From contig JASHNS010000028.1 in NCBI GenBank assembly GCA_030041515.1, positions 1-64,000 on the forward strand: a stretch of 64,000 nucleotides of DNA, read 5' to 3'. The notes under the pieces were generated by a model. It made no database searches. It was given only the letters and a program-made list of their open reading frames with translations, and was not told the DNA's origin. Each line of letters starts with the position of its first letter. Position 1 is the first letter of the stretch. Both the position numbers and the translations under genes were made by a program. The stretch is from Acidobacteriaceae bacterium. GTDB lineage: Bacteria; Acidobacteriota; Terriglobia; Terriglobales; Acidobacteriaceae. Positions 38,993-63,106 of this stretch are shown piece by piece.

Positions 38993-41900
38993 ATGGACGA
39001 CCCAAAGGGGCAGAAGTACGACCAGGAAGCTCCGACGATCATGGTGAGCACAGGTGTGTCTACCCCGCCCACCTCAGGTGAGAGAGAGCCAATCTCCGAT
39101 TCGCCAGCAGAGGCAGGGGCGACACCGTCTGCAACCGATCCGGGGCTGCCAGGCAGCGTCAGGTTGTCTCCCGAAAGGCCGGTCCGCTCCCCAGGCGGCG
39201 GCAGCGAAGCAGGGAGTGGCGAGGCCCTGCAGCCGGGAAGCGTCTTTGCGAATCGGTACGAAATCCTCATGAATCTGGGCGAGGGCGGCATGGGCGCGGT
39301 TTACAAAGCCCGTGACCTCGAACTGGAGCGAGAGGTTGCCCTCAAGGTCATCCGACCTGAGCTGTCCCGAAATCCTGAAATCCTGCAGCGGTTCAAGCAG
39401 GAGCTGATCCTTGCCCGGCAGGTGACCGACCGTAATATCATCCGCATTTTCGATCTCGGAGAGGCGGACGGCATCAAGTTCATCACGATGGAGTACATCG
39501 ACGGCCTGAGCCTCCATCAAATCCTGAAGCGGCAGAGAAAGCTGGAGGCCGCGGAAGCCATCGACATCATGGAACAGGTGGCTGCCGGACTGGCGGCTGC
39601 CCACCGCGAAGGGATTATTCATCGCGATCTGAAACCCGGCAACATCATGCGGGACAGCCATGGCCGGGTGGTGGTCATGGACTTCGGGCTGGCGCGCAGC
39701 ATCGGCGGCGACGGCCTTACGCGCAGCGGCGCAATGCTGGGCACCATGGAGTACATGTCGCCGGAGCAGGCGCAGGGCAAGGAACTCCAACCCAGCTCCG
39801 ACATCTTCACGGTGGGCCTGATCCTTTATGAACTGCTCGCCGGAGTGACGCCGTTTCACGCGGAGAGCGCGATCGCCAGCCTGTTGATGCGCACGCAGCA
39901 GCGTGCAGCACCCCTGGTGGAGATCGATAAGAACATCCCTGGCTCGCTGAGCAATATCGTTGCCAGGTGTCTCGAGAAGGATCCGGCCAATCGCTACCAG
40001 AGCGCTGCGGAACTGGATGCCGATCTGCGCGCGTGGCAGGGCCGGGGCGAAGGAAAGAAGGTTTCCGCGACGGCCATGCGAATGCGCATGAACCGCGTTC
40101 GAGAGCTTCCGTGGACACGTTTTGCGATCACAGGTGTGCTGGTTGTGGCGGTGGGCGCCGGACTTGCCTGGTTTGCCATGAGGCAACGGGCCGCGAAATC
40201 AGGTACTCACGCCCCGGTCTCGGTGCTGGTCGCCGACTTTACCAACCTCACCGGCGACCCTCTGCTGAACAATACGATCGAACCGATGCTCGGCGAGGCC
40301 CTCGAAGGCGCCAGCTTCGTGAATGTATTCAGCCGCGAAGACGCGCGCAAGCTGGCGGAAAAGCTCTCCCATCCCTCCAACAAACTGGACGAGCAGACAG
40401 CGCGCCTGGTCGCCATCAACCAGGGCATCAACGTGGTAGTTACGGGTCAGATCACTCTGCGCGGTGACAGTTACGGCATTTCGGCGGTGGCTCTGGATGC
40501 GGTGAGCGGCAAAGTGCTCGCAACGTCGGATGTCGGCGTGGGCAGCGAGAAGGAGATCCTCGCGAGCCTTCCGAAACTAGCGGTGCCGATTCGCAGAGCT
40601 CTGGGCGACACCACGCCCGCCTCGGTTCAGTTCAACGAGGTCGCGGGGGGATTCAAAGCCGCATCTCTGGAGGCGGTTCACCAGGTTTCGATCGGTCTCG
40701 ACGAGCAGTTCGCGGGCAAATTCCAGGAGGCATTCGATTCGTTCCAGAACGCCGCGGCGATGGATCCGGGCTTTACGTGGGCGTATACGGGTATGGCGGC
40801 CATGTCGGAAAACCTCGGCAAACCCGAGGACGCCGTCAAGGAAATGAATCAGGCGATGGAACACATCGACGACATGACCGAAAGGGAGCGCTATCGCGAC
40901 CGCGGACTCTACTATCGGATCACGGGAGACTGGCAGGACTGCGCGCAGGAGTACACGAAGCTCGTGACTCACTACCCCGCCGACCGCGTCGGCTGGAATA
41001 ACCTTTCTGTTTGTTACACGCAGTTGCGCAACGCGCCGAAGGCACTCGAGGCGGCCAGGCGCGCCGTGGCCATCGTGCCCCGAGGGGTCTCGGAGCGGCT
41101 GAACCTGGCCTTCATCGACGCATTTGCCGGAAATTTTGCGGGGGGCGAAAAGGAAGCGCGCACCGCGCTGGCGATGAATCCCTCGGCTGCACAGGGATAC
41201 CTTTCGCTGGCCGAAGCCAGCCTCGGGCAGGGGCAACTGGATCAGGCCGCGGAAGCCTATCGCAAGCTGGAGACCTTTGGTCCGGGCGCGACATCGACCG
41301 CGGTGGCCGGGCTGGCCGATCTTGACGCCTACCAGGGCAGGTATGCGGAAGCGGAACGCGTTCTGACGGAGGGAGCAGCCGCCGATCTGGCCGCCGGGGA
41401 TGCCGACGCCGCGGCCAGGAAATACGTGGCGCTGGGCACGATCGAGGAATCGCTGGGAGAACAGGCCGCAGCCATTTCCGATACAGACAAGGCACTGGCG
41501 CACAGCAGGATTGTTCCCATTGAGTTCCTGGCGGCACGCACGTATGCCAATGCGGGAGAGTTTGCGAAGGCGCAAAAGCTGGCGACAGGCCTCTCTTCCG
41601 AGCTGTCCGGCGAATCCCAGGCGTACGGCAAAATCATCGAAGGCCTGATCGCGCTGAGGCGAAACGATACGAATGGGGCGGTTGAACAGATCAGAGCTGC
41701 GAACGGCCTGCTGGATACCTGGATCGGCCACTTCGATCTGGGGCACGTTTACCTTGCCGCGGGAGCATTCAACCAGGCGGATTCGGAGTTGAGCGAATGC
41801 ATCCAGCGGCGGGGAGAAGCGATCGAGCTGTTCGACGACAATGTTCCGACGTACGAATATTTCCCGCCGGTGTACTACTACGAGGGGCGCGCGCGGCAGG

Positions 41901-42010
41901 GAATGAAGAGCGCAGGATTTGCGGACTTCTACAGGGACTATCTGGGCATTCGCGGGCAGTCGTCCGACGATCCGTTCCTCTCCGATATCCGCCGCCGTCT
42001 CAGCCACTAA
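38993..42010 (+). CDS. Ser/Thr protein kinase with transmembrane segment and TPR repeats
   Basis: A 1005-residue Hanks-type kinase. An unstructured Pro/Ser-rich arm (1-80) precedes the kinase domain (about 88-355): GEGGMGAVYKA, VALKVI, HRDLKPGNI, DFGLARS and GTMEYMSPEQ are all intact, so activity is expected. One membrane helix is at about 380-400 (FAITGVLVVAVGAGLAWFAM). The outside part begins with a segment (SVLVADFTNLTGDPLLNNTIEPML) common in acidobacterial and planctomycete kinases, followed by TPR-like helical repeats from about 560 to 960. Such kinases sense periplasmic or protein-protein cues. The gene ends 88 bases from the convergent giant gene, which may encode a functional partner. 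Confidence 0.93.
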   Translation: MDDPKGQKYDQEAPTIMVSTGVSTPPTSGEREPISDSPAEAGATPSATDPGLPGSVRLSPERPVRSPGGGSEAGSGEALQPGSVFANRYEILMNLGEGGMGAVYKARDLELEREVALKVIRPELSRNPEILQRFKQELILARQVTDRNIIRIFDLGEADGIKFITMEYIDGLSLHQILKRQRKLEAAEAIDIMEQVAAGLAAAHREGIIHRDLKPGNIMRDSHGRVVVMDFGLARSIGGDGLTRSGAMLGTMEYMSPEQAQGKELQPSSDIFTVGLILYELLAGVTPFHAESAIASLLMRTQQRAAPLVEIDKNIPGSLSNIVARCLEKDPANRYQSAAELDADLRAWQGRGEGKKVSATAMRMRMNRVRELPWTRFAITGVLVVAVGAGLAWFAMRQRAAKSGTHAPVSVLVADFTNLTGDPLLNNTIEPMLGEALEGASFVNVFSREDARKLAEKLSHPSNKLDEQTARLVAINQGINVVVTGQITLRGDSYGISAVALDAVSGKVLATSDVGVGSEKEILASLPKLAVPIRRALGDTTPASVQFNEVAGGFKAASLEAVHQVSIGLDEQFAGKFQEAFDSFQNAAAMDPGFTWAYTGMAAMSENLGKPEDAVKEMNQAMEHIDDMTERERYRDRGLYYRITGDWQDCAQEYTKLVTHYPADRVGWNNLSVCYTQLRNAPKALEAARRAVAIVPRGVSERLNLAFIDAFAGNFAGGEKEARTALAMNPSAAQGYLSLAEASLGQGQLDQAAEAYRKLETFGPGATSTAVAGLADLDAYQGRYAEAERVLTEGAAADLAAGDADAAARKYVALGTIEESLGEQAAAISDTDKALAHSRIVPIEFLAARTYANAGEFAKAQKLATGLSSELSGESQAYGKIIEGLIALRRNDTNGAVEQIRAANGLLDTWIGHFDLGHVYLAAGAFNQADSELSECIQRRGEAIELFDDNVPTYEYFPPVYYYEGRARQGMKSAGFADFYRDYLGIRGQSSDDPFLSDIRRRLSH

Positions 42011-42098: not shown

Positions 42099-45000
42099 TT
42101 ATGGCGATGCCTGGCCTGACAACGAAATGGTCTGCGTGCTTCCGGCGACTCCATTGTTGTTGTCGATGATCGTGATGGCTCCCGAGCGCGAACCGACGCT
42201 GGTGGCGAGCGGCTGGAACCACACGGAGATCGTGCAAACCCCTCCCCTCGCCAGGGTCGCCGGAGATACGGGGCAGGTGCTCGACGCGCCGAATTCGCCG
42301 CTGGCCGCGATGCTGTTGATGGTCAGCGGTCCGCCCCCGGCATTCACCAGCGTCACCGTTTGGGATGAACTGGTGGTGCCCTGTTCCTGGTGGGGGAAGG
42401 TGAGGCTCACAGCGGACAAGCCGACAATCGGATTGGACCCGCCGGCTCCCGTGCCGTAGAGCTCCACCGTCTGCGGCGGAGGAGTCTCATTGGGAGCCAT
42501 TCCGGGTGGGGTGGCGTACGTAAACACCAGAGAACTGGTACGGGTGCCCAGGTCCCCGGGCGTGAAGACAATCGACAGGGTGCAGCTATTGGCGCCGCCG
42601 CCGGCCGGAGCCAAAGTCAGAGCGCCGACGGAATTGCCCGAGAAGGTGGCTGCCCCGCTGGCATTCGTACAAGTGGTTGCTGTAATTGCGAAATCCCCCG
42701 CATTCGATCCGGTCAGGCTCACGCCGGACAGATTGAAGGGCAGGCTTTCGTTCTGGTTCGTCATCGTGATCGTCATCGCGCCACTGGACTGGCCGGCATT
42801 GACCGGCATGAACACCAGCGGACTCGGCGTGAAGATCACAGGCGTGACAGCCGGAACAACGCCAGCGCTCTCTGAAGCCTGACCTGTGTAAAGGTCAGGA
42901 GGACCAATCTCACCGTGTCCAGGCTGCTCGTTCGAGACGAGGTCGGCGAGGAAATTATAGGGCGTGCCTGCGTTGTAGCTGTTCTCCTGAGCAATCGGGC
43001 ACTTGCCAGGATCGGCGCTGTTGACGCCGAGCACACCCAGATTGGCCATATTCAGCGATTCGCCCGCACAGGTTGGATTCGCGCTGGTGGGCTGGTTTCC
43101 GAAGCATGGGTTATAAACCGCAGCTCCCCATTGCCAGTTGATGAGCACTCCCGGCGTGTCCGTGGTGAACTCCGCGGACCAGGTGACGTTCTGGCTGGCG
43201 CCCGGGCCGTTGCCCCAACCTCGGGGTAATTGCCCGATCGCGGCCGGCAGGAGGTACGGAACACCGGAGACGAAAATGTTTCCCGGAATCGTGAACTGCT
43301 GCCTGCCACTCGCGGGGTCGGTCATGGGAACCTGCGTGACCCAGCGATTATTGGTTGCATCGAAGGTGGTACTCGCCTGGGTCAGTCCGGGGACGAACTG
43401 GATCAGCGCATCCGGGACAGGGATGGTCGTGGTCGTGCCATTGGTAGGATTGGTGAACGAAATGCTCCCGTTGGTGACCATGATCTGCACTTCGTCCGTA
43501 CTCATCTTCAACGGATTGCCATTCGGATCGAGCGGACCTTCCACGGACAGTTCGCTGTTGAACCAGAGGTAGTCGCCGGCTGGAACGCTCTGCGCCGGCG
43601 GCATGGGGAAGGTGCCGCTGATACCGCTGAGCGCCGACCCTGTCAGCGCAATCGAGTCCGTAGCTCCTGTCTGGCCGCCGTCGTTGTCGGTGAAGACCAG
43701 AGTCCCCGTGCGGACGCCTTCGCCTTGTTTTGGGTTGGGGGCGAACGCGAGGGTTACGGTACAGCTGTCACCGGTGGCTATCGTGCTGGTGTTCGCTGCC
43801 AGCGGAGCCGGAGCCGCGGCCCATCCGCTGTCGACACGCTGCGGTCCTAATGGCGTCTGCCAGGGCAGCAGGCTGCCGCTGCAGGTGGACGACTGGATGA
43901 TGAAGTCGGCCGGTCCCGAATCGCCGGAGACGATCTGGGCTCCGGTGACATTCAGCGGCGCTGTGCCGATGTTCGTGAGAACCACAGTCATGCTGGCGCT
44001 CGTTGATCCGACATCCGTACTGGGGAACGCCACACCGTCGGGGCTGATGAACGCGACCGGCACAGATGCGACCACCTGCGTGACGGAGGCCGAGCTGGAC
44101 TGGAAGTTCGGATCTGAATTGGCCCCGCCGAAGGTTGCGGTCACCGTGTTGGTGCCCGGAGGCAGGAGGAATGTGCTGTAGGCCTGGGTGACGGGCACAC
44201 TCCCGAGCGGAACCGAGGCGCCGCTGTTGATCGTGCTGTTCGTGTAGGAATAGAGGACCGAGTCGGTGCCTGGCGGAACCGGCGTCACGGTCGGGGTGAA
44301 CGTAACCAGCTGGCCATAATTCGAGGCCCCCCCGGTGGAAGACACGAGTGAGATGCTCGAGCCTGCGGGAGCGATCGTCAATGTCCCGTTGACATAGAGG
44401 AACGAGTAATTTGCCGCAGCTAAGGTGCCCGTGGATACGGTGATGGGATATGCGCCGACGCCGCTGGTTGGGGTGGCAGTCGTGGTTAAGCCCGGCGCAC
44501 CGCTGACCACCGAGGCCGTGTCACCGTTCACAAAGCCGGTGATGCTGTACGTCACATTGAGGGCTGGAGTCAGGGATGGGAGCGACTGCCCGTACACGGC
44601 GCCGAAGCTGGCCGCCGTGACCGTAAGCGGAGCGGCGGCGATGTAGAACGACTGCGTCACGGTTGCCTGGCTGTAGGAAGAGCTGCCTACCTGTCCGGCG
44701 GGCGCCGTGACCGTAATCAGGCACAGACCGGCCCCGCTGGCAGTGCCGGTTGTGGTCCATAAGCCGCCTCCGGACGACGACGCGCTGCCCACGGCACAGG
44801 GCCCGTTGAGCGGCGCCGCGAAGCTGAGGGGCAATCCAGAGCTCGATGTCGCGCTGATCGTGAATCCGTTGCCATATTGCACGGTGGGCGCCGGACCCAA
44901 AGCGATGGTTTGCGACTGCGTGGTGGAACCCTGCGGCAGGATCGTGAAGGTTCCCGTCGCAGGAGTGGCCGCGCTGTAGGCGGGTGGGGTCGTCGCCGTG

Positions 45001-48000
45001 GTGCTGTCGCCCGCCTGCGTCGCGGTAATGGTGCAGCTTCCCGTACTGTTCAGGGCCACCGTAGCCGAGGAAACTCCATTCGTGTTGATTGTCGAATCTC
45101 CCACGGAGCAGGGACCTGAGGCGCTGAAGCTCACCAGTTGCATGTTTGGAGCGCCGTTCGACTCGGCGGTCGCGGTGACCGGAACTGTCGAATTCGTAAT
45201 CAACACCGAACTGGGCAACGAGCCAAGAACAACCGTCTGGTTCATGGTGAGCACCGCCGGGGGAGATGGAGCGCTCTGGCGTTGAGAACCGTTTGCGTCC
45301 GCAACGAGCGTGGTCGTAATCGTGTAGACCAGGGTCCCGGCGGGCGGATTCGTGTCGGTAAACGTGGTCGCCGGCGCGTTCCCGTTCACGCCGCTCACAC
45401 TTCCAATCACCACCGCGGGCGCCCCGTTCACGCTGCGAGAAATCGTGTAGGTCGCAACGACTCCGAAGACCGGCGCCGTCCAGTTCACCTGGATACTTTC
45501 CGGCGTATTGGTGGTTGCGGGCACGACGGAATAGGTGGGCGAACCCGGTGGGCGAACGATCGAGTTGGCTGTGTCGTAATCCATCTCGGTCGTCGTGGAA
45601 CCGCCGCCGCCCAATGTGACATTGCCGCCGCCGCCCAGCGTCACATTGCCGCCGGCTCCCAGCGTGACATTGCCGCCACCGCCCAGCGTGACATTGCCGC
45701 CGCCACCCAGCGTGACATTGCCGCCGCCGCCCAATGTGACAGTTCCGCCACCGCCCAGCGTCACGGTGCCGCCGCCGCCCAGGGTGACATTGCCGCCGCC
45801 GCCCAGCGTCACCGTGCCGCCGTTGCTCAGCGTCACTACGCCGCCGGCGGGTACCGTATACGAACCTCCGGTTGGGGGTACGGTCTCCGTGCCGCCGCCC
45901 CCCAGAGTGATCGTGCCGCCACCGCCCAGCGTGACGTTGCCGCCGCCGCCCAGCGTAACGGTCCCGCCCGCGCCCAGAGTGATGGTGCCGCCGGCTCCGA
46001 GTGTGACGTTGCCGCCGGCTCCCAGAGTGATCGTGCCACCGGCTCCGATCGACAGGTTCCCGCCACCCCCCAGGGTAACGCTGCCGCCGCCGCCGAGGGT
46101 GACATTCCCGCCGCCACCGAGCGTCACCGTGCCGCCGCCGCCCAGAGTGACCGTACCGCCGGCTCCCAGTGTGACATTGCCGCCGCCGCCCAGAGTGACA
46201 TTGCCACCGCCGCCCAGCGTCACTGTGCCCCCCGCGCCCAGGGTGACGTTGCCGCCGGCACCGAGCGTGACATTGCCGCCCCCGCCCAGGGTCACATTGC
46301 CACCGCCGCCTAAAGTGACCGTGCCGCCGCCACCCAGGGTCACGTTTCCACCGCCGCCCAGCGTCACCGTACCGCCGGCGGGAACTGTGTAGGAACCTCC
46401 CGTCGAAGGAATCGTCACTGTGCCGCCGGAATCGGGAAGCGTGATTGTGCCGCCGCCGCCCAGGGTCACATTGCCGCCGCCGCCCAGCGTCACCGTGCCA
46501 CCGGTGCCGGTCATGGTGATGGTTCCCGTACCGCTCAGGGTGACCGTGCCGCCGCCGGGCAACACGATCTTCCCGTCGGCTCCAGGGGTGATGGTATTCG
46601 GGCCGGCGGCATCGTTGCTCAGCGTCAGGCTGCCTCCTGTGCTGAAGGTCATGGTTCCGCCGCCACTGAGAACTGCACCGCTGCCAACGCTTGCGCTGCC
46701 GCCGTTATTCAGTTCCACGCTGCCGCCGTCGCCCACACTTACTGTGCCGCCGGCGCCAACAGCCACGCTCTGACCGGAGCTGACGCTGACCGGCGTTGAA
46801 GAAGCGCCGAAAGAAAGGAAGTTCGCGAGCGATGCGTATTCGCCGCCGGTCGCGCCCACCTGGCGCAGGTCGATGTTGGCGACGTCGTCGTATCCGGGCA
46901 GCCCCGTCAATCCCGTTGACCCGGGTTGCACGCCATCGAAGGTAATGTCCTGGTCGGCCTGCCACGGTGGAGTGACCGGTGCGACAGACCCCTCCACAAA
47001 ATATCCCGTATCCCCGTTGAGAGGAGTGCCGTCACAGTGCAGCTGGGCTGCGCTCTCCGTCGAAGACGGGCTGCCGGTGGAATTGGCTGGTGCGGACGCC
47101 TGGTACCACGCCGAGCTGGAAAAAGTCGCCGGCGTCGTGTTGTCATTGGCCAGAAGGTCACCCACCGAATTCAACGTCGATTCGGACAGGGTTTCCAGCG
47201 TCTGGTTGGAGTAAGCAACGGCTGCATTCAGTCCCACGCCGTCGAGCTGGAACAGATAGTTCATCGAGCTCTGATAATTGGGCTTGCAGTTGATGTCGAA
47301 GGTCGGAATATAACTGCCCGCTCCTCCCTTGAAGTAAAGGCCGCCGTGGGTTAAGCCGAGGGTGTGGCCGATCTCGTGGAACAACGTGCCGGCAATGACC
47401 TGGGCGCGCTTGCTCATGTCCTGAGTGGGATCCGTCTCCCACAGGCCCAGTGTTACAGCCGAATCCTGGCCGCCCAGATCGGAGTAACCGGAGATGCTTG
47501 TGACTGTGCCCGAAGTGAGGCTCGTCACCGGCTCTGCCGGTGTGTTGTTGGCGTAACTCCAGTTGGCAACGCCCGGCGTTGAGAGAATGATCGTCGAGCC
47601 GTCAGGGCACGACGCCGTGTTGTAGACGCCATTGAGACCCGGATCACTCAGTACTCCGGAGATGGTGAATCGGCTTGGGCAATAGTTGATGTCGCCCTGC
47701 GAACCCCGGTCGGCGGTTGTGATGGTGGTTTGGCCGGTCGAGGCGTTGGCGGTGATCGTTTTCAGCGTTCCGAACAGCGTGCTCCACGCTGGTACCGCCA
47801 GGGAGTGCCCGAAGAGAACGTAGTGATAGCTGTCTTTCTGCCCGTAGGGGAAGCGAGCTGTGCAGTCGCCACCGGCAGCGCAGGAATTGAAATTGCGAGG
47901 CCACAGCTTGGTGAATTCCAGGCTGTTCTTCCAGCCGATCACCCCCGGCTGCCCCGGGAACTCGCAAAGCTGCGGCGGCGTGGTCGAAGTGTTGTCCGTG

Positions 48001-51000
48001 CAGGTGGTCTCCGGAACTGGGTTACCGATCTTAAGGTGCAGCACGATTCCCGTGTTGGCGAATGCCTTTTCGACCATGGACAGCGGGTCAGCGCCGCTGG
48101 GGTCCGGCGATGGGAACAGGTCTTCACCCGTGCAGTTACCCTGCGAATCCACGGAGCCGCACATCCAGTCAAGCTGAACGAATAAGTCCTTCTCGCCGTG
48201 TTTTGCTCCAGGCAACGCGACCCACGACTGCGTCCTTACGTCGTAGTAGCCCGGCTGCCCGGCAAAGAAATCAGGCGCCGCGGGGCCGGCCTTCCACGAG
48301 TCCAGAATCCCGTCGTTGTCGCTATTCGCCACCGGTGTCGAGAAGATCACCGCGGCATAAGCCGCGCCCGCATTCAGCGGCGCGTTGGCGCTGCTCGCTC
48401 CTGCTGCCAGCGAAACAGAACTGGAGCTGGTGCTCCAGGTTCCACCCGCGTTGTAGAGCGTCGTGAGTTCTCCGTTCCCACCCACTGCGTCATAGAATCC
48501 CTGGATCGTCTGCGTTGTGGAAGCGGACGGCAGCGCCGACCCGTCGTATATCACGATCGATTTCAGCGGCAGGCTTCCTGGGTTGCCAGGAGCCACGAGC
48601 GCGCGATAAAGAACCACCATGCTCGCACCCTCGGGGACGGTGAGTTGTCCGCTGGGTATGTTGATGTCTGTCAGAGAGACCGTAAAGGGACCGGAGGCGA
48701 GGCGTTCTCCATTCCAGCTTGGCGGGGGCTGGAAATAGGTGTTGATGTCGGCGCGATACACGCGCAGCGTCCCGCTGTTGGTACCGTCGCTGTAGTTCGG
48801 GATATCGCTTCCCACCTGCTCCCCGGTGATGGAGTAGCCGAGGAATGTTCCGTTATTCCCGGAAGGTGTCGCTGTATTTTCGATCGTTGTCCAGTACAGG
48901 AAAGCATCGATAATGTCAGCTCCGTCGGGAACGCCCTGGCTGCACCCGCAGGTTGTCAGATCCGGGACGGTGATGGTTCCGGTAGCCAGGTTGTTGGCGG
49001 CGGTGGCTCCCTTCAGGCTCACTCCCGCAGCGGCATAATCGCCCGTGACGAAGTAGTTGTTCTCGAACGTGAGCGGGTCTGGCGCCGGTGGCGGCGCTTC
49101 ACCGGTTGAAACGAGAAGCGCGACCGGGGATCCGAGATTCACCGGCGATCCGGCAGCCGGGCTTTCGCCGATCACACTGCCCTGGGGCTCGCTGCTGCTG
49201 TACTGCGTGCTCACCGTGCCCACAGTCAGTCCCACTGTGGTAAGGGTCGTCGTCGCGTTCGGCACCGTCATCCCCACCACGTTGGGAACGGCAGCCCCGG
49301 TCGCGCCGTACAGGCTGCCGATGCCGCTCAGGTTGACCGTCTGCACGCTCACCGACGATGCAAGGTTCATCGTGTTGTCGCTGAAATCCGCGCTGTCGGT
49401 CAGGATGCCTGTGGTCGTCGGCGTGAAGGTGAAGCTTGCATAGCAGAATCCGCCTGGCAGGACATTCGCGGGCGTACTGGTGCCGCAGGCAGAACTCGCC
49501 GCGTTTTCGCTGAAGTTCCCGGTCGACGTCGCGCCCACCGAAACCGACAGCGGCTGGGTGCCGTTGCCAACATTTTGAACAGAGGCCGTCTGGGGTCCGT
49601 TGGACGCCCCGACGTTCGTGACCGCAAAGCTCAGGGACGGCGGCAGCGACCGGGTGATCTCCAATACCTCTGGCTGTGTTGCGGAGACATTGCCGACGAA
49701 GACATCGCCCGCTCCATCCAGTGCCACGGCAGCCGGCAAAATTCCGCTGACGACTGAGGTCTGGCAGGCGCTTGCCGCGCAGCCGGCTGGAACCTCCACA
49801 ACCGCACCCAGCCCTTCATCCGCAACGTAGACGTCGCCCGCTGCGTCGACCGCTACATCATCCGGAGCCTGCCATCCACTGCCGATCAGCTTCTGGCAGC
49901 TGGCCGCGGTGCAACCGGCCGGAACCTCGACGACGGCTTTGCGGCCATTGTCGGCGATGAAAACATCGCCCGCCGCGTCTGCTGTCAGGCCGACCGGGTT
50001 CGAAGGGGCCCCTGGGCTATAAACGATCTTCTGGCAGACGGTGCTCGTGCACCCGGAGGGAATCTCCGCAACTTCACCGTTGAAGTCGCCCACGAAGAGG
50101 TCACCCGCTCCATCGACGGCCACTCCCAGCTGAGCGGTGAGGTTGGTGCTCACAGGCGCCTGGCAGCTGCTTTGAGTACAGCCCGCCGGAATCTTAATCA
50201 CTTCGTTCAGGTTGTTGTTCGCAACAAACAGGTTGCCGGCTCCGTCTTCCGCCATTCCCTGCGGAAGCGCGAATCCGGAGCCCACCGTGGAGATGCTGCC
50301 ATCCGGCGCAAGCTTCAGCACCTGATTGTCGGTGTCTCCATCGGCGATGAAAAGGTTGCCGGAAGCGTCCACCAGCAGGCCAGCGGGGTAGACCAGCGAG
50401 TAAGAGCCGGTATGGATCTGGACCTGCGCCGCCGGGCTAAAGGCAGCCACCGGTCCCACCCCGATGCCATAGATCGGCGCGCTCGCGATCAGGCCGCCGG
50501 TGGCGTTATACAGTTCCACCGCGCCCAAACGCAATCCAGGCGCCAGCGGAGCGAAGTTCACATTCACATTGCAGGAACCGGGAGCGGAGAAGGCGGGCGT
50601 GCATGTGCTGCCGCTGGCCTGCGTGAAGTCGAGGCCCGATGCTCCCTGAGTCACTACCAGGACCGCGCCGATCGTCGTGTTCGCCGGAATATTGAAGGTT
50701 ATCGGGAAAGCGGCGCTGCAGGGCGCAGGAGTGGTCTGTCCGGCCGGACAGGCGTTGGCGCTGCCGAAATCCTGCTGCACAAAACTCGCGGTCACACTGG
50801 CGGCCGCGTTCACGGTGACGATACACGTAGAATTGGTGCCTGAACTCGCGCACGCGCCACCCCAGCCGAGGAACGCCGAGGTTCCGGTGACTGTAGCTGT
50901 CAGCGTCACATTCGTTCCGCTCGGATAGCTCCCTGAACACGTGCCTGTGAGGGTGCCGTTCGAACCCGTGCAGGCAATCGCGCTCGAATTGTCGGTCACC

Positions 51001-54000
51001 GTGCCCGAGCCCGAACCCACGGTGGCCACGGTCAGTGTGAAGTTCGGGGAAATGCCTGTGGCGCTGAGACTGATGACCTGCGTGGCGGGATTGCCATTGA
51101 AAGAGTTGTCGCTTACGGCAGCCGTGCTGCTGAGCGGGCCGGCGGTTGTCGGCTGGGCATAGAAGCCCTCAACGCAGGTCGCGCCCGGCACCAGAGAAAC
51201 CCCATTCACACTGGTACAAGTGGAGTTGACCAGGTCCTCGGCAAAATCGGCGGTCGTGGTCGGCCCGAGTGAGCCTGTCAGAGCCTGGTTGCCGACGTCC
51301 TGAATCGTGATTCCGATATCGGCGCTTCGGGAGCCCACATTGATCGCACCGAAGTTCAAGGCTGCCTGCGAAAGGTTCTCCTCCACCACCCGGTTATTAT
51401 CGAAGTCCGCGATAAAGATATCGCCCGATCCATTCACGGCCACGCCAAGAATGTTGGTACCCAGTCCCGTGGCGGCGACCGTCGTCTGAACGCCACTGGG
51501 TGTTAGCTCAAACACGCTGCTGATCCAGTAGTTCGTGACGAAGACGTCGCCCGCCGCGTCCGCCGCCACTCCGATGGGATCATCCAGCCCGGTGAATGGC
51601 AGCGTGGTTTGCACCCCGCTGGCGCTTACCTTCACAACACGGTTGTTTCCTGAATCCGCGATAATCACATCGCCCAGTCCATCCACGGCCACGCCTTGCG
51701 GGACGTTCAGCCCGCTGCCCACCGTCGTCTGCGCACCGCCGTTCGCCGGAACCTCCACCACCCGGTTGTTAAAGTAATCCGCGATAAAAACATTCCCTGC
51801 CCCGTCCACGGCCACGCCTGCCGGGCGGTTCAGTCCGCTGCCCACCGTAATCGGCGCTCCGCCCCCTGCTGGAATCTTCAGCACGAGGTTGTCGTCGATT
51901 TCGGCTGTGTAGACGTTGCCCGCTCCATCCACGGCCACGCCTTCGAGATAGCTCAGTCCGCTGGCGATTGTGGTCTGTGCGCCGCCGCCAGCCGGGATCT
52001 TGACCACCCGCCCGTCACCCCAATCTGCGATGAAAATATTGCCCGCCGCATCCTCGGCGATACTGTACGGGTTAACCAGTCCGCTGCCCACGGTGGACTG
52101 CACTCCCAGGCCAAACGCAATCGCCGGCGCCTGGCCGACGCCATAGATAGGCAGCGCGGCAAGCACATTGCCGCTGCTGTCGAGGAGATGCACCGCGCCC
52201 ATGCGCAATCCGGGCGCCAGCGGCGCGAAGTTCACATTTACGGTGCAGGAACCAGGAGCGGAGAAGGCACCCGTGCAGGTGCCGCCCGTGCCTTCCGTGA
52301 AATCGAGTCCGGTTGCGCCCTGGGTGACCACCTGGGTCGCGCCGAAGTTCGTGGTTGCCGCCGCGTAGTAACTCAGCGTGACCGTCGTGCTGCACGGAGC
52401 AGGTGTGCTCTGGCCGGACGGACAGACGTTCACGTTACCGAAGGGCCCGTACTCGAGCACTCGATTGTTCGAGTAGTCGCTCACGTAGACGTTGCCGCTG
52501 TTGTCCACCGCCACGGCCCACGGTTCGGAGAAGCTGTTGGCGCTGATTCCCCCGTTGTTCGCGGCGCCGCTTGTGAAGCTGCCCAACTGGCCATAGACCC
52601 GCGTGGCCGTCGTGCTGCCGAAGGGGTAGAACACCATGCGGTTGTTCGAGCGATCGACCACGTAGAGGTCGCCGGCGCTGTCCAGCGCGGGATACATCGG
52701 ATTATCGAGGCTATCGGCGGTAATCCCGCCGTTGTTTGCGGTGCCGCTTGTGAAGCTGCCCAACTGGCCATAGACTCGCGTGGCTGTGGTGCTGCCGGAA
52801 GGATAGAACAGGACGCGGTTGTTGTAGATGTCCGCTATGTACAAATCCCCGCTGGAGTCGAGCGCGACTCCGGTCGGCTGGTTCAGGCTGCTGGCGCTGA
52901 TTCCGCCGTTGTTCACCGCGTTACTTGTGAAGCTGCCGCCCTGTCCGTACACCCGCGTCGCGGTGGTGCTTCCGGCGGGATAGAAGAGTACCCGGTTGTT
53001 CTGGTAGTCGCTTACATACAGACCGCCGCTGGCGTCCACAGCTAATCCGTAGGGTTGGCCCAGACTGTTGGCGCTTACTCCACCGTTGTTCTCGGTCTTC
53101 GTTGTAAAGCTGCCGTTCTGCCCGTAGACCCGCGTCGCTGTCGTGCTCCCCGCCGGATAGAACAGCACCCGGTTGTTGTACTCGTCGGCGACGTAGAGAT
53201 CGCCGCTGCTGTCGAGCGCAAGACCCTGAGGATTGGACAAGCTGTTGGCGCTGACTCCGCCATTATTCGCGGTGCCCGTGGTAAAGCTGCCGTTCTGTCC
53301 GTAGACTCGCGTCGCCGTCATACTGCCGCGTGGGAAGAACAGCACTCTGTTGTTCTGGCCGTCGGCTGCATAGAGATTGCCGGCCGGGTCGACGAGAACT
53401 CCACCAAGGGCCTGCATGCTGCTGGCGCTGATGCCGTTGTTTGCATTGCTGGTAAAACTGCCCCCCTGTCCCCAGACAACGCCCGCTGTGATGGGTTCGA
53501 GGTTTCCGGGTTGAGCCGCTCCAGGCGCGACAAAGCTTGCGCTGGCGCCCATCGCCGCGCTCATCGTCACTGTGCAGGTCGGGCTGACTCCTGAGCTCGC
53601 GCAGGCTCCGCCCCATCCGGCGAAGATCGAGTTCCCCGTTGCCTCCGCTGTAAGCGTCACGGTGGAGTTCGTTTCCGCTGCCGAACACGTTCCCGATACG
53701 GTTCCGTTCGTATCCAGGCAGGTGATCAGGTCCTCGCTGTCCGTCACCGTACCGGAGCCGTTGCCTGTGTCCGTCACCGTCAGCGTATAGACCGGACTAA
53801 ATACCGCGCTCACAGTGAGAAACGGGCTCACGGTAACGTTGCAGGTCGGGTTGGACGAGTTGGCGCAGGAGCCGGCCCAGGTGGTGAATGCGGACCCTGC
53901 TGCCGGAGTCTCCTCCAGCGTCACGATCGTTCCTCCGGCGAAGGTGGCTACACAGGTCCCGGATGTGGTTAAGCCCACAATGCTGCAGTCGATGCCCACC

Positions 54001-56678
54001 GGAGTCGAAACCACGGTGCCGCTGCCCCCGCCAGGACCGTTTACGTACAGCGTGTCGTTCGGCTCCACAGCCGTGCCTGCGACATTGAAGGTCTGTGTCG
54101 CGGGATTGCCATTCAGAGAGTTGTTCTGGAGCGTGGCCGCGTCGCTGATATTCCCCCCGGCGACAGGGACGAAATCGATGGTGAGGCTGCATTCCTGGCC
54201 CGGCAACAGCGTGAAACTCATATCGCAGGCGGGGGAAATTCCATTCGTCAGCTGAAAGGCAGTCGTGAGGCCGATTGCGGAGTTGACCAGTGGCTGGTCG
54301 CCCGCATTCAGAATCGAGAAGTATTGTGGGTTGCTCATGCTGCCGACGTCCGTAGTCTCAAAGCTCAGCGATGGCGGCTCCGACTGATTGATCTCGAGAA
54401 TCTGCGTGGCAGGAGACTGCTCGGAGATGAAAACCTCCCCCGAAGCATTGGTGGCGACGCCGTAGGAAAGACCGTTGAACAGCAAAACCTGACAACTGCT
54501 GCTTGTGCAGCCGGCCGGAACCTCCTCCACCCCGCCCGAGCCGCCGTTCAGCTCGGGGTCCGCGACGAAAACATCACCCGCCGCATCGACCGCGACGCTT
54601 TGCGGAGAAGACCATCCGCTGCCCACGGTGCTTTGGCACGCGGCGGTGGCGCAACCAGCAGGAACCTTAACGATTTTCTGCAGACCGGCGTCGGCGACGA
54701 AGAGATCTCCCGCGGCGTCCACCGCCACGCCTTCAGGCTGAGACCATCCGCTGCCCACTGAGACCTGGCAGGCAGAGCTCGTGCAGCCGGCGGGAAGCTC
54801 CAAAACTCCGGCGACCGGATCGGCGATAAAAAGATTCCCTAATCCATCCACTGCCACGCCGGCCGGGCTGGGGTGCACCACCGGCGCATACACCGGAACC
54901 TGGCAACTTGGGACCGTGCACCCGGCCGGAATCTCAACCACCTCGCCCAAAGGTGTGTTCAGCCCAGGATCGGCGACAAACAGGTCGCCCGCTCCATCGA
55001 TGGCAACGCCTTGGGGGGTGACGAACCCAGATCCCACCGTGCTCACGGCGCCATTGGGCGTTACCTTGAGCACGTTCGACTCGCCGGAGTTCGCGAGATA
55101 GAGATTGCCCTGCTCATCCGCCGCTATGCCGAGGGGGCCGGATAGAACTGCCGTTCCGGTGGAGACCGGCGAGCCGCTCACTCCGCTCACCGACGGCGCT
55201 GGGGCAAAGGCGATCTCCGGCGCAAGGCCGTTGCCGTAGATCGGCGTGCTGGTCAGCAGCGTGCCCGAGCCGTCGAACAGATTCACCGCGCCCGTCCGCA
55301 AACCGGGCGCCTGGGGAGCGAAGGTGACGAGGACGGTGCAGGACGTTCCCGCATTGACGGCGCCGGCGCAGGAGCCGCCGCTGCCCAGCGAAAAGTCCAG
55401 CCCGGCCGCTCCCTGCATGACCACCTGCGGCGTACCGAAGGTAGTGGTCGCCGGAACGTTGTAGGTGAGTGTCAGAGTGTTGCTGCAAGTGGACACAACC
55501 CCGGTTCCCGGGGCACAGACGCTCACGCTGCCGAAGTTCTGCGGCAGACCCCAGTTCCAGGTGTCGCCATAGGTGTTGATGTTGCTGTACCCGCCGAAAA
55601 GGACCACCTGGTTCTGCGCCGCGTCGTAGGCCATTGCAGATGTTGCGCGCGCTGCCGGGCTGGTCCCGGAGGTCTGCTGCGTCCACGTAAGATTGCCTGG
55701 GGAATTCCCGCTTAACACCCACGTATCGTTCAGGTACGTGCCGTTGAGGGCGAGTTCTCCCCCAAACAGGACGATCTGCCCCAGCGCAGCGTCATAGTCC
55801 ATCCCTGCGCTGTCGCGCCCGGTGGGGCTGCTCGCGGGGCTGAGCTGAGTCCAGGCGCTTCCGTTCCACGCCCACGTGTCGTTGTCCTCGACTCCGGTTT
55901 GATCAAATCCCCCGAACAGAATCACCTCGCCGAGGGCGGCGTCGTACGACATGCTCGCGCCCCAGCGCGCCGAGGGGCTCGCTGAGAGGCCGGTCGCCTG
56001 AGCCCAGCTCGTCCCATTCCACACCCAGGTGTCGCCGAGATCGGAATTACTCACGCCCAGACCGCCGAACAAAACAATCTGCCCGTCCGCCGCGTCGTAA
56101 GCCATGGCGGCGCTGCTGCGCGCCGGAGGAGTCGTGGCCAGGCCTGTTACCTGGCTCCAGCTGGTCCCGTTCCACAACCACGTATCACCGAGGCGGCTGC
56201 TGCCCGTTCCGGAAGTGGATCCACCGAACAGCACGACCTCGCCCTGCGCATCGTCGTAGGCCATGGTCTGGTTCGAGCGCGCCGAGGGGTTGCCCGAAGA
56301 AGGGGTGACATTGGCCCAGTTCGTTCCGTTCCACACCCAGGTGTCGTTCAGGACGCTGCTGTACCCGAATCCCCCGAACATCACCACCTGGCCGTGTGCA
56401 GCGTCATAGGCGAGACTGGTGGCAAAGCGTTCGGGAGGCGCCGTTGTGGGCGACAGCTGAGCCCAGCCCGCCTGCAGCGTGGGCGCCTGTGCGAACGCGG
56501 GGATCGCAGTCGCCAACATCGCGGCGCCGGCGAACGCGACAGCGATTTGTCGCCACGCGAGCTGGCGCGCCCCGCGCTCCGATCCTGAGCCGATATGCCG
56601 GCCAGAGAGACTGTGCGAGGAAAAGCGTGCGCATCTGCAGCGCCCGCTGGAGTCCACACCTGATGACTGACCGGCCAT
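42099..56678 (-). CDS. giant secreted mosaic protein (kelch/NHL/PASTA/metzincin/Gly-rich repeats/Ig-like)
   Basis: About 4,859 residues. ATG 56678 follows GGGGGGAA; signal peptide AVAFAGAAMLATAIPAFAQA ends near residue 64. Order of parts (nucleotides): six kelch-like blades with MAYDAA..QVVLFGG (56470-55560); ASH/choice-of-anchor module repeated three times (FAPLAPGLR.GAV); blocks of NHL propeller repeats (55150-54370, 53460-52440, 52080-51370, 50400-49640); InlB-like modules (GSGTV...WGGAC); one PASTA domain (49300-49090, VPNVVGMTV); a DUF3344-like part; a metzincin-type protease region with HEIGHTLGLTHGG (47341-47380) and SSMNY (about 47260); Gly-rich octapeptide repeats (46800-45590); an FN3-like and MBG/Ig-like part; HYDIN-like modules to the end. 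It is predicted to be a surface or matrix protein. No sorting signal is recognised at the C-terminus. Confidence 0.88.
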   Translation of the reverse strand: MAGQSSGVDSSGRCRCARFSSHSLSGRHIGSGSERGARQLAWRQIAVAFAGAAMLATAIPAFAQAPTLQAGWAQLSPTTAPPERFATSLAYDAAHGQVVMFGGFGYSSVLNDTWVWNGTNWANVTPSSGNPSARSNQTMAYDDAQGEVVLFGGSTSGTGSSRLGDTWLWNGTSWSQVTGLATTPPARSSAAMAYDAADGQIVLFGGLGVSNSDLGDTWVWNGTSWAQATGLSASPSARWGASMSYDAALGEVILFGGFDQTGVEDNDTWAWNGSAWTQLSPASSPTGRDSAGMDYDAALGQIVLFGGELALNGTYLNDTWVLSGNSPGNLTWTQQTSGTSPAARATSAMAYDAAQNQVVLFGGYSNINTYGDTWNWGLPQNFGSVSVCAPGTGVVSTCSNTLTLTYNVPATTTFGTPQVVMQGAAGLDFSLGSGGSCAGAVNAGTSCTVLVTFAPQAPGLRTGAVNLFDGSGTLLTSTPIYGNGLAPEIAFAPAPSVSGVSGSPVSTGTAVLSGPLGIAADEQGNLYLANSGESNVLKVTPNGAVSTVGSGFVTPQGVAIDGAGDLFVADPGLNTPLGEVVEIPAGCTVPSCQVPVYAPVVHPSPAGVAVDGLGNLFIADPVAGVLELPAGCTSSACQVSVGSGWSQPEGVAVDAAGDLFVADAGLQKIVKVPAGCATAACQSTVGSGWSSPQSVAVDAAGDVFVADPELNGGSGGVEEVPAGCTSSSCQVLLFNGLSYGVATNASGEVFISEQSPATQILEINQSEPPSLSFETTDVGSMSNPQYFSILNAGDQPLVNSAIGLTTAFQLTNGISPACDMSFTLLPGQECSLTIDFVPVAGGNISDAATLQNNSLNGNPATQTFNVAGTAVEPNDTLYVNGPGGGSGTVVSTPVGIDCSIVGLTTSGTCVATFAGGTIVTLEETPAAGSAFTTWAGSCANSSNPTCNVTVSPFLTVSAVFSPVYTLTVTDTGNGSGTVTDSEDLITCLDTNGTVSGTCSAAETNSTVTLTAEATGNSIFAGWGGACASSGVSPTCTVTMSAAMGASASFVAPGAAQPGNLEPITAGVVWGQGGSFTSNANNGISASSMQALGGVLVDPAGNLYAADGQNNRVLFFPRGSMTATRVYGQNGSFTTGTANNGGVSANSLSNPQGLALDSSGDLYVADEYNNRVLFYPAGSTTATRVYGQNGSFTTKTENNGGVSANSLGQPYGLAVDASGGLYVSDYQNNRVLFYPAGSTTATRVYGQGGSFTSNAVNNGGISASSLNQPTGVALDSSGDLYIADIYNNRVLFYPSGSTTATRVYGQLGSFTSGTANNGGITADSLDNPMYPALDSAGDLYVVDRSNNRMVFYPFGSTTATRVYGQLGSFTSGAANNGGISANSFSEPWAVAVDNSGNVYVSDYSNNRVLEYGPFGNVNVCPSGQSTPAPCSTTVTLSYYAAATTNFGATQVVTQGATGLDFTEGTGGTCTGAFSAPGSCTVNVNFAPLAPGLRMGAVHLLDSSGNVLAALPIYGVGQAPAIAFGLGVQSTVGSGLVNPYSIAEDAAGNIFIADWGDGRVVKIPAGGGAQTTIASGLSYLEGVAVDGAGNVYTAEIDDNLVLKIPAGGGAPITVGSGLNRPAGVAVDGAGNVFIADYFNNRVVEVPANGGAQTTVGSGLNVPQGVAVDGLGDVIIADSGNNRVVKVSASGVQTTLPFTGLDDPIGVAADAAGDVFVTNYWISSVFELTPSGVQTTVAATGLGTNILGVAVNGSGDIFIADFDNNRVVEENLSQAALNFGAINVGSRSADIGITIQDVGNQALTGSLGPTTTADFAEDLVNSTCTSVNGVSLVPGATCVEGFYAQPTTAGPLSSTAAVSDNSFNGNPATQVISLSATGISPNFTLTVATVGSGSGTVTDNSSAIACTGSNGTLTGTCSGSYPSGTNVTLTATVTGTSAFLGWGGACASSGTNSTCIVTVNAAASVTASFVQQDFGSANACPAGQTTPAPCSAAFPITFNIPANTTIGAVLVVTQGASGLDFTQASGSTCTPAFSAPGSCNVNVNFAPLAPGLRLGAVELYNATGGLIASAPIYGIGVGPVAAFSPAAQVQIHTGSYSLVYPAGLLVDASGNLFIADGDTDNQVLKLAPDGSISTVGSGFALPQGMAEDGAGNLFVANNNLNEVIKIPAGCTQSSCQAPVSTNLTAQLGVAVDGAGDLFVGDFNGEVAEIPSGCTSTVCQKIVYSPGAPSNPVGLTADAAGDVFIADNGRKAVVEVPAGCTAASCQKLIGSGWQAPDDVAVDAAGDVYVADEGLGAVVEVPAGCAASACQTSVVSGILPAAVALDGAGDVFVGNVSATQPEVLEITRSLPPSLSFAVTNVGASNGPQTASVQNVGNGTQPLSVSVGATSTGNFSENAASSACGTSTPANVLPGGFCYASFTFTPTTTGILTDSADFSDNTMNLASSVSVQTVNLSGIGSLYGATGAAVPNVVGMTVPNATTTLTTVGLTVGTVSTQYSSSEPQGSVIGESPAAGSPVNLGSPVALLVSTGEAPPPAPDPLTFENNYFVTGDYAAAGVSLKGATAANNLATGTITVPDLTTCGCSQGVPDGADIIDAFLYWTTIENTATPSGNNGTFLGYSITGEQVGSDIPNYSDGTNSGTLRVYRADINTYFQPPPSWNGERLASGPFTVSLTDINIPSGQLTVPEGASMVVLYRALVAPGNPGSLPLKSIVIYDGSALPSASTTQTIQGFYDAVGGNGELTTLYNAGGTWSTSSSSVSLAAGASSANAPLNAGAAYAAVIFSTPVANSDNDGILDSWKAGPAAPDFFAGQPGYYDVRTQSWVALPGAKHGEKDLFVQLDWMCGSVDSQGNCTGEDLFPSPDPSGADPLSMVEKAFANTGIVLHLKIGNPVPETTCTDNTSTTPPQLCEFPGQPGVIGWKNSLEFTKLWPRNFNSCAAGGDCTARFPYGQKDSYHYVLFGHSLAVPAWSTLFGTLKTITANASTGQTTITTADRGSQGDINYCPSRFTISGVLSDPGLNGVYNTASCPDGSTIILSTPGVANWSYANNTPAEPVTSLTSGTVTSISGYSDLGGQDSAVTLGLWETDPTQDMSKRAQVIAGTLFHEIGHTLGLTHGGLYFKGGAGSYIPTFDINCKPNYQSSMNYLFQLDGVGLNAAVAYSNQTLETLSESTLNSVGDLLANDNTTPATFSSSAWYQASAPANSTGSPSSTESAAQLHCDGTPLNGDTGYFVEGSVAPVTPPWQADQDITFDGVQPGSTGLTGLPGYDDVANIDLRQVGATGGEYASLANFLSFGASSTPVSVSSGQSVAVGAGGTVSVGDGGSVELNNGGSASVGSGAVLSGGGTMTFSTGGSLTLSNDAAGPNTITPGADGKIVLPGGGTVTLSGTGTITMTGTGGTVTLGGGGNVTLGGGGTITLPDSGGTVTIPSTGGSYTVPAGGTVTLGGGGNVTLGGGGTVTLGGGGNVTLGGGGNVTLGAGGNVTLGAGGTVTLGGGGNVTLGGGGNVTLGAGGTVTLGGGGTVTLGGGGNVTLGGGGSVTLGGGGNLSIGAGGTITLGAGGNVTLGAGGTITLGAGGTVTLGGGGNVTLGGGGTITLGGGGTETVPPTGGSYTVPAGGVVTLSNGGTVTLGGGGNVTLGGGGTVTLGGGGTVTLGGGGNVTLGGGGNVTLGGGGNVTLGAGGNVTLGGGGNVTLGGGGSTTTEMDYDTANSIVRPPGSPTYSVVPATTNTPESIQVNWTAPVFGVVATYTISRSVNGAPAVVIGSVSGVNGNAPATTFTDTNPPAGTLVYTITTTLVADANGSQRQSAPSPPAVLTMNQTVVLGSLPSSVLITNSTVPVTATAESNGAPNMQLVSFSASGPCSVGDSTINTNGVSSATVALNSTGSCTITATQAGDSTTATTPPAYSAATPATGTFTILPQGSTTQSQTIALGPAPTVQYGNGFTISATSSSGLPLSFAAPLNGPCAVGSASSSGGGLWTTTGTASGAGLCLITVTAPAGQVGSSSYSQATVTQSFYIAAAPLTVTAASFGAVYGQSLPSLTPALNVTYSITGFVNGDTASVVSGAPGLTTTATPTSGVGAYPITVSTGTLAAANYSFLYVNGTLTIAPAGSSISLVSSTGGASNYGQLVTFTPTVTPVPPGTDSVLYSYTNSTINSGASVPLGSVPVTQAYSTFLLPPGTNTVTATFGGANSDPNFQSSSASVTQVVASVPVAFISPDGVAFPSTDVGSTSASMTVVLTNIGTAPLNVTGAQIVSGDSGPADFIIQSSTCSGSLLPWQTPLGPQRVDSGWAAAPAPLAANTSTIATGDSCTVTLAFAPNPKQGEGVRTGTLVFTDNDGGQTGATDSIALTGSALSGISGTFPMPPAQSVPAGDYLWFNSELSVEGPLDPNGNPLKMSTDEVQIMVTNGSISFTNPTNGTTTTIPVPDALIQFVPGLTQASTTFDATNNRWVTQVPMTDPASGRQQFTIPGNIFVSGVPYLLPAAIGQLPRGWGNGPGASQNVTWSAEFTTDTPGVLINWQWGAAVYNPCFGNQPTSANPTCAGESLNMANLGVLGVNSADPGKCPIAQENSYNAGTPYNFLADLVSNEQPGHGEIGPPDLYTGQASESAGVVPAVTPVIFTPSPLVFMPVNAGQSSGAMTITMTNQNESLPFNLSGVSLTGSNAGDFAITATTCTNASGAATFSGNSVGALTLAPAGGGANSCTLSIVFTPGDLGTRTSSLVFTYATPPGMAPNETPPPQTVELYGTGAGGSNPIVGLSAVSLTFPHQEQGTTSSSQTVTLVNAGGGPLTINSIAASGEFGASSTCPVSPATLARGGVCTISVWFQPLATSVGSRSGAITIIDNNNGVAGSTQTISLSGQASP
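45595..46560 (-). repeat. 24-bp tandem repeat array coding for GGGGNVTL octapeptides
   Basis: Roughly 36-40 copies of a 24-base unit inside the giant gene, each giving GG(G/A)G-(N/T)-(V/I)-T-L on the minus strand. Two less regular spacers with GGSYTVPAG interrupt it (near 45845 and 46375). Third positions vary, so the protein pattern is under selection rather than the DNA being a very recent expansion. Such regular 8-residue Gly/Thr/Val patterns fit a beta-roll or beta-solenoid. Confidence 0.9.
47240..47385 (-). other. metzincin zinc-protease signature inside the giant protein
   Basis: The minus strand encodes HEIGHTLGLTHGG (HExxHxxGxxH zinc site) at 47341-47380 and, about 30 residues on, QSSMNYLFQ near 47250-47280, the position and form of a Met-turn. 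This combination defines metzincin metalloproteases. The domain is preceded by a typical NDNDGILDSW and KDLFVQLDWM segment found in related secreted peptidases. Confidence 0.75.
52440..53470 (-). repeat. 177-bp tandem NHL repeats within the giant gene
   Basis: About six copies of a 59-codon unit (YGQ.GSFT......NGG, LA.D.SGDLYVAD..NNRVLFYP.GSTTATRV). The copies are highly similar at DNA level, so recombination may change copy number. Six blades correspond to one NHL beta-propeller. Confidence 0.85.
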
Positions 56679-56899
56679 TTTGAATTCCCCCCGAAAATCG
56701 GCGTGGCCGCCGATGACATGTACCGCTCCCGTGAGGCGCACTGATTGCCGAAGCAAAGCCGTTCGCCTGTTCGGCAGGAATCCACACTCTCGCAGCGTCC
56801 TTGTCGGCGCCAGATGGAACCTTCAAATGGCCATTGGGGAAATGGCGTCTGCGGTGCTGTTCATCCCGAATAAGCGGAGCAGGATCGTCAGGTACTTAT

Positions 56900-62588: not shown

Positions 62589-63106
62589 AGGGCTCCCTCT
62601 TTCCTGCATGGTCAGCGTATGGGGTCTGGTGCTCGTGCGTGGCCTGGAATACCGGGTCTTGTTGTTGCCTGTTCACTCGACTCGATTGACTTCCGCAACC
62701 GAGGAGAAATTTTCCGACCAGTGAATCAATGTATTAGAACACAGATAATAGTTTGCTGCGTATTACAGCATCGATAATGCTCTATAGCACTATTCGGAAT
62801 CGACTGTCAAGACACTGCGCCCGCGCGAAGGCCTCCGCCGGCAAGGAAGAAGGCCGACAAACTCCACATCAGGGGGGGCGGCTGTTTGAGCGGAAATACG
62901 CGGAAAATTATTGAGAGCCGTGGCATCGTGTCTCCCCGGCACCTGAATTGTTGATACGATCGCCGCTATATAGCAACGGGTCTGCTATGGTAATCGGGAG
63001 ACGGAAACACCCGACCGCTCACGAGTGCCGAGTGGTCCGCAGGTGTGGCAAGCAGTTGGAGAGCGCGGTCCGTTTCCGGGCCCCGGATGTGAAAACGGTG
63101 GGGGCG
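62589..63106. other. divergent regulatory region receptor/GntR
   Basis: About 520 bases, notably AT-richer around 62700-62800 than the surrounding DNA. It carries the promoter described separately. No other gene is supported. The GntR frame is open back to 62948 without a ribosome site. Confidence 0.5.
62781..62810 (-). promoter_or_regulatory. sigma70-like promoter for the TonB-dependent receptor
   Basis: On the minus strand TTGACA (62810-62805) and TATAGA (62786-62781) are separated by 18 bases. This would give a leader of about 185 bases before the ATG at 62588. Short inverted arms ATAG/CTAT overlap the -10 side (62783-62792), a possible site for the divergent GntR regulator. Confidence 0.4.

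Follow-up and report, generated by a model that had tools for sequence, protein, structure and literature searches.

The window, by which we mean the whole 64,000-nucleotide stretch of Acidobacteriaceae DNA that was analysed, carries on its minus strand a giant ORF of 4885 aa (42099..56756, from Pfam and reading) that contains the repeat array described here. Pfam places Kelch, NHL repeats, ASH/choice-of-anchor D and PASTA (49104..49289, minus strand) domains in this ORF; further domains are metzincin-type, FN3-like, MBG_2, Big_3_5 and CEP192/HYDIN-type. The N-terminus looks by eye like a signal peptide, and we infer that the protein is secreted. The array (aa 3317-3723) lies between the metzincin-type (M12B reprolysin-like) region, which served as the search query (46809..49079, minus strand), and an FN3-like domain (approximately 45252..45536, minus strand, with bounds inferred from relatives). 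Pfam found fn3 in 4 of 29 relatives, and the structural model of one relative (L055) gives FN3 matches. Tandem repeats of 123 and 177 bp were also seen in the same ORF at 51653-53431, where Pfam puts the NHL repeats. A TonB-dependent-receptor-like outer membrane protein (OMP_b-brl_4, carboxypeptidase-regulatory domain) is encoded at 59124-62609, two genes upstream of the giant ORF. On the plus strand, convergent with the giant ORF across a gap of about 90 bp, lies a Ser/Thr protein kinase gene (38993..42010) with a kinase domain at aa 89-336, a TM-like segment found by hydropathy at aa 377-395 (FAITGVLVVAVGAGLAWFA, 40121..40177, plus strand) and a TPR region (aa 397-1005). A paralog of the giant protein, with an array of its own, was found on contig C25 of the same genome.

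The peptidase-like region has the HExxHxxGxxH motif and the Met-turn that define a metzincin, as HEIGHTLGLTH (47346..47378, minus strand) and SSMNYLF (47250..47270, minus strand). Across 14 aligned members these motifs keep their three His, their Glu and their Met without exception; some distant relatives deviate at the zinc motif (for example HEFGHTAERRH in L117). Reprolysin_5 was found at E up to 0.1 in 25 of the 29 relatives (best 5e-6; L055 scores 17.1 against a cut-off of 27 bits), and the peptidase region of the window ORF gave only DUF4953 at E 0.2. Foldseek with the L055 model returned mainly FN3 domains and no confident peptidase among the 50 matches listed.

The octad array and its stability

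The strict octad array, with the pattern [NT][VI]TLG[GA]GG, occupies 45600..46496 on the minus strand (Tandem Repeats Finder and octad split of the protein), and degenerate, looser octads lead into it over 46497..46784 on the same strand (octad split). Tandem Repeats Finder reports period 24 with 31.7 copies at 45601-46364 and 2.4 copies at 46447-46503. Splitting the window protein into eights gives 48 octads over 45600-46769, and in the strict part there are 32: NVTLGGGG (11), TVTLGGGG (10), NVTLGAGG (5) and six others. At the DNA level 31 of the 32 strict octads are distinct, the variation being mostly in third codon positions. At a lag of 8, 212 of 291 residue pairs in the array are identical, versus a mean of 70.8 in 5000 shuffles (sd 6.2, maximum 91). 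Two spacers interrupt the array on the minus strand, spacer 1 at 46371..46409 (PSTGGSYTVPAGG) and spacer 2 at 45840..45878 (PPTGGSYTVPAGG), both from the octad split and alignment; each consists of two atypical octads and one inserted residue, and the G and Y columns of spacer 1 are invariant across 11 aligned arrays. The octad array that the sequence-only reading had placed at 45595-46560 without a strand is therefore real and sits on the minus strand inside one ORF, while the 36-40 copies that it had counted fall between our strict count of 32 and our loose count of 48. Its two spacers are real too, but its statement that irregularity is confined to them is not quite right, since TITLPDSGG, VVTLSNGG, NLSIGAGG and the loose region also break the pattern.

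The array was compared with that of the ortholog in Acidobacterium sp. isolate clean1663 (L037), which differs from the window at ~30% of synonymous sites. The octads of the two are 96.4% identical over 302 residues, and since only one residue has been inserted or deleted, no octad has been gained or lost. The flanks are 92.1% (peptidase region) and 83.5% (C-terminal part) identical. Over the array pN is 0.027 and pS 0.299, and 70% of the codons for identical octad residues are the same. Inside the window array adjacent copies share 98 of 197 codons (0.50), which equals the null of 0.50 obtained when the codons are dealt randomly within the array. Pooled over 35 arrays, adjacent-codon identity is 0.483 versus a null of 0.473, where the slot was unplaced in L061, L063, L064, L065 and L071 and the rows of L055 and L057 hold one unit each. 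Five of the 35 arrays (the C25 paralog, which is L009, and L014, L020, L038 and L070) lie above the codon null with z 2.3-3.4, a trace of recent duplication. As judged from these sequences, the array is under selection at the protein level, its units staying alike while their codons drift. The pattern suggests that it was born by duplication and that its protein sequence was then kept up for a long time.

In the window array pN/pS is 0.233 between copies and 0.089 between orthologs. This resembles the repeat proteins of Persi, Wolf and Koonin (2016; PMC5120217), where copies are reported to diverge faster than orthologs and repeats are strongly conserved between orthologs. The short arrays of relatives differ from those proteins, being almost without protein divergence between copies: in most, pN between copies is 0 to 0.04 and pS 0.3-0.9, and the DLGQT array of L071 has pN 0 and pS 0.91, although choosing the units by pattern biases pN downwards.

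These comparisons bear on whether the array is a hypervariable VNTR or contingency locus, which we consider highly improbable. Array length does vary among more distant species (337-488 aa including short flanks), and the slot of L068 holds a young-looking DDGYWDLG array in whose best segment all 23 adjacent codons agree, so that new copies can arise. Against this stand the unchanged octad number over a pS of 0.299 and the 31 of 32 units distinct in DNA. The variable tandem repeat of the sequence-only reading thus finds no counterpart in the comparison with L037 or in the chance-level codon sharing of adjacent copies. Its warning that a short-read assembly could misjudge the length was fair, because 5 of the 16 contig records of this octad type (L039-L043 among L037-L051 and L059) break off at the array or within it.

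Fold of the array

Each octad would form a short beta-strand (NVTL) followed by a Gly-rich turn, and an array of such octads would most likely be a beta-solenoid rod, perhaps a three-sided one. The AF2 model has a strand in nearly every octad at a low mean pLDDT of 43.8. Foldseek with this low-confidence model gave 8 structural matches at E 0.001 or better, to the beta-helices of the autotransporters TibA and Ag43 (4kh3, which we take to be Ag43), with a TM-score by query length of at most 0.27; these are its best structural matches and serve as a weak hint. When the array together with the looser octads was searched by sequence against PDB chains, 23 matches came back, of which 19 are VgrG, gp5 or phage/T6SS spikes (best 1.1e-8). 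The octads match those of the VgrG/gp5 beta-helix in the order of their residues, the alignment with 9gtr resembling the order NVTLGGGG by eye. All 11 aligned arrays are hit by the Pfam family DUF2345 when E values up to 1 are allowed (best 1.2e-23); the window array scores 24.5 bits, below the curated cut-off of 30.7, and the strict octads alone give E 0.002. None of 8 permuted, shuffled or reversed copies of the array matched DUF2345, so the match needs the residue order. One scrambled control matched the unrelated Bflower_2 at 2.3e-8, which means that low-complexity repeats do yield spurious matches.

Relatives also show a phase of three octads. The pooled lag-3 identity has z 9.3, with the window counted twice and the arrays related to each other, and in a phase test over the longest chain (continuing across the spacers in it) p is below 0.05 in 7 of 11 arrays. 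This phase is absent from the window array (phase test z -1.2, p 1.0; lag 3 p 0.07-0.08). A recent 72-bp duplication was considered as the source of the phase and rejected, since the codons are without it (codon identity 0.525 at lag 3 and 0.48-0.52 at other lags).

The spike matches raise the reading that the array is a VgrG/gp5-type trimeric spike through common descent, and the PDB matches, the octad order in the 9gtr alignment and the DUF2345 matches in all 11 arrays speak for it. The octapeptide repeat of gp5 is described in PMC3004832; the window array shares with this beta-helix (DUF2345 in VgrG and phage T4 gp5) the eight-residue unit and a residue order, detected by profile, that goes beyond composition. 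It differs in that Pfam lists no VgrG-type N-terminal domains on the whole window ORF, the array stays under the Pfam cut-off, and units of 5-7 residues occupy the same slot in relatives. Also, at E 0.001 DUF2345 has a single match in this genome, the paralogous C25 array, which passes the cut-off only after neighbouring stretches are added. The three-octad phase of the relatives would, by our reasoning, fit a single-chain coil better than a symmetric trimer. We therefore rate descent from such a spike as very unlikely.

Other known repeats were compared as well. Pentapeptide repeats (PF00805, PF01469) resemble the pentad arrays that some relatives have in the same slot, and 6 of the 10 pentad and hexad arrays scanned pass the pentapeptide-repeat cut-off, whereas neither family is listed by Pfam for the window octads. 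The RTX beta-roll is a nonapeptide with a Ca-binding Asp, a Gly-rich turn and a short strand; the window octads share the turn and the strand, but the unit has eight residues, not nine, and the strict octads are without Asp. The regularity that had led the sequence-only reading to propose a repetitive beta-solenoid is hence borne out in part, by the modelled strands and the VgrG/gp5 octad match, and is held back by the low pLDDT and the missing super-period in the window. On balance we lean, by a small margin, towards a beta-solenoid fold.

A conserved slot in which the repeat unit changes

A profile scan of genome contigs with the peptidase region found 167 relatives, of which the best 80 were kept, and the slot was read in the 39 of these with a broad match (L037-L074 and L087). 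A repeat is present in the slot of all 36 readable loci; the contigs of L053 and L066 end before the slot, L041 is illegible at this point, and the repeat of L087 is down to about three degenerate copies. The remaining 41 of the best 80 are more distant and match mostly near the zinc motif. By script, none of these 41 has an array after an in-frame HExxH and none has the kinase at E 1e-60.

The unit itself changes by lineage. Units of 8 residues include NVTLGSGG, TLAMGSGG and GLKVGGGG; those of 7 are GGGIAFT, RLTGGAG, KLTVGTG, INFAGGG, VKFEGGG and IFGVGGG; those of 6 are DLGSGG, VRVGGG and ASQADL; and those of 5 are DLGQT, DLGQE, DLGVN, DLGRG, DLGSR and GFGDL. On a quick tree of 40 tips, built with the array excluded, from rows chosen for having an array and with unit labels assigned by hand, we count a minimum of 29 switches in the unit consensus and of 9 in the period. 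In viral contigs 153 stretches fit a pattern, and none of them encodes a relative. As the best reading of these sequences, the GGGGNVTL array would be one lineage's version of a repeat segment kept at one place in giant, apparently secreted Acidobacteriota proteins, and a lineage would replace its repeat unit over long times. This poses an evolutionary puzzle, as the whole array switches its unit between lineages, yet in most arrays the adjacent copies are alike in codons only at chance level.

Two further explanations of the array meet this turnover differently. If its part were to link domains flexibly through a Gly-rich stretch, a repetitive spacer of any kind would suffice, and the variation of unit and period between lineages is what such a linker would allow; the short array of L055 also has a very low AF2 score of about 20-27, as disorder would. 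A loose linker, however, would not need the copies within each array to be alike in protein with scrambled codons, nor octads that are better conserved than their flanks, and we regard it as unlikely. The other explanation, raised by the sequence-only reading, is that a regular face of the array binds ice, polysaccharide or mineral. Ladders of T-V-T and T-I-T would be regular, and an antifreeze beta-helix (3p4g, E 0.07) is among the weak matches of the low-confidence array model. Relatives nevertheless swap the whole unit, the ladder residues being wholly replaced in the same slot (DLGQT, GGGIAFT), which makes such binding less likely as the role of the family, and we think it improbable for the array.

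The kinase gene beside the array gene

A Ser/Thr kinase-TPR gene adjoins the array gene at 33 of 43 loci, at a distance of 10-538 bp. In eight of the remaining 10 (L039-L043, L053, L061 and L070) the 3′ sequence runs out, where either the contig or the fetched stretch ends; L048 has no kinase within 6 kb on its 3′ side, its 5′ side being cut, and no kinase lies within 9 kb of L060 in either direction. Not counted as adjacent are a kinase fragment 5.6 kb from the peptidase ORF in L041 and a 27% match at 7.8 kb in L043. The two genes are convergent at 27 loci and co-directional at 6 (L062, L063, L064, L066, L071 and L087), and the adjacency therefore outlives a flip in orientation. In an order-wide sample of 200 genomes, 16 match the kinase at E below 1e-180, and every one of them has the peptidase; this cut was fixed after seeing the gap to the next match (5e-145). 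Only one genome, G181, has the peptidase, at a contig end, without a strong kinase. The co-occurrence over the 200 genomes gives a Fisher p of 1e-22 with kinship ignored. Kinase and peptidase distances correlate with r 0.883 over the 435 pairs of 30 loci (0 of 1000 permutations), which is what co-inheritance predicts. The source genome has two kinase-array pairs. The kinase of the second is split over contigs, with query aa 539-1003 beside the paralog on C25 (L009, 14225-15625) and aa 1-537 on another contig of the same genome (G000 C97:1-1677).

The TM-like segment is found in 50 of 54 related kinases at a hydropathy cut of 1.6, and the other four reach 1.38-1.56. From these features we infer that the kinase is a membrane protein, and its C-terminal TPR region would be extracytoplasmic. 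PASTA kinases are membrane Ser/Thr kinases with sensor ectodomains. The window kinase is like them in its kinase domain, its one TM-like segment and its presumably extracytoplasmic C-terminal region, and differs in having a TPR region instead of PASTA and in the adjacent gene for a giant array protein. A role as a defence gene was considered and set aside, as the PADLOC matches (PD-T4-6 and others) are best in the generic kinase region.

More distant kinases have partners of a second type. In six genomes of the order sample the kinase is 38-42% identical across its TPR part, and the peptidase gives no match at E 1e-20. Beside all six, 74-159 bp away, lies a long ORF without an HExxH motif, and five of these ORFs have by eye a signal-like start, while that of L129 is truncated where the contig stops. 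Apart from L129, which is related to the others only over what remains of it, the ORFs resemble each other along their full length (39-53% to L127). A Pfam search of four ORFs gave BNR_2 above the cut-off in L127 and weakly in L128, and the Ig-like He_PIG in three. The array detector was passed by 4 of the 6, with PSVGN, NPAIQ, TNPDI and PAITG; L130 and L131 are below it and show by eye weaker repeats of IFTPKI and NTPRI. These distant kinases thus adjoin a BNR-type protein that also has an array, which makes the repeat segment the feature common to the partners.

The prediction that an array ORF lies beside kinase hits outside the order was fixed beforehand. Of the 23 such hits 20 were fetched; of the rest, G490 was already known, and neither G347 nor a second piece in G382 was included. 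An array ORF was found beside 14 of the 20 loci, 13 by the set gap rule and also L161, added afterwards because its array ORF overlaps the kinase by about 60 bp and was missed by that rule. Since thirteen of the 14 are BNR-type proteins related to L127 (30-48%), the positives do not count as independent trials. The remaining one, L152, is a metzincin locus on the same contig as L068, seen earlier, and without it the count is 13 of 19. Among the misses, sequence is cut off next to the kinase in L153 and L158, and L163 is masked; L154 and L165 have the BNR-type partner with the array only as fragments, and in L167 an array ORF is absent on the open 3′ side. As a control, none of 20 third-tier kinases, nine of them from the source genome, has an array ORF within 1.5 kb (0 of 16 when L135, L137, L140 and L148, with under 0.5 kb of 3′ sequence, are left out), and a chance neighbourhood of a common kinase type was rejected on this ground. 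In 17 BNR-type arrays the adjacent-codon match is 0.31-0.80, near their own nulls, with L155 higher (0.76 vs 0.62). Separately, NAEVY/NSEVY interruptions occur between the pentad blocks of L162 (3427-8922), L128, L164, L169 and L171 and echo by eye the SYT spacers.

Taken as a whole, our reading is that an apparently secreted protein linked to a kinase carries a beta-solenoid segment with Gly turns, its unit lineage-specific and its slot conserved, and we hold this reading to be evenly balanced. The array would join the metzincin-type peptidase domain to the FN3/Ig-like domains, and the repeat segment could serve as a stiff spacer, or as a rod for docking, in contact with the extracytoplasmic TPR region of the kinase. 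That the array contacts the TPR region at all is a tentative proposal, drawn from sequence, that we find rather doubtful. A description of the pairing of kinase and array protein was not found in the open-licence full-text literature, and our results suggest that the array gene and the membrane kinase form an undescribed two-gene system. Its parts are of known kinds (metzincin, BNR domain, Ser/Thr kinase, TPR and solenoid-like repeats), and their pairing is the new element. More speculatively, and with still less confidence, there may be a phylum-wide module in which the kinase TPR region reads a multivalent array on a dedicated giant secreted protein; the unit would then be a lineage-specific code, rewritten over time and separating paralogous pairs, and the enzyme-like part would be exchangeable between metzincin and BNR types. 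If the kinase does read the array, this would provide a testable ligand for a group of uncharacterised Acidobacteriota kinases.
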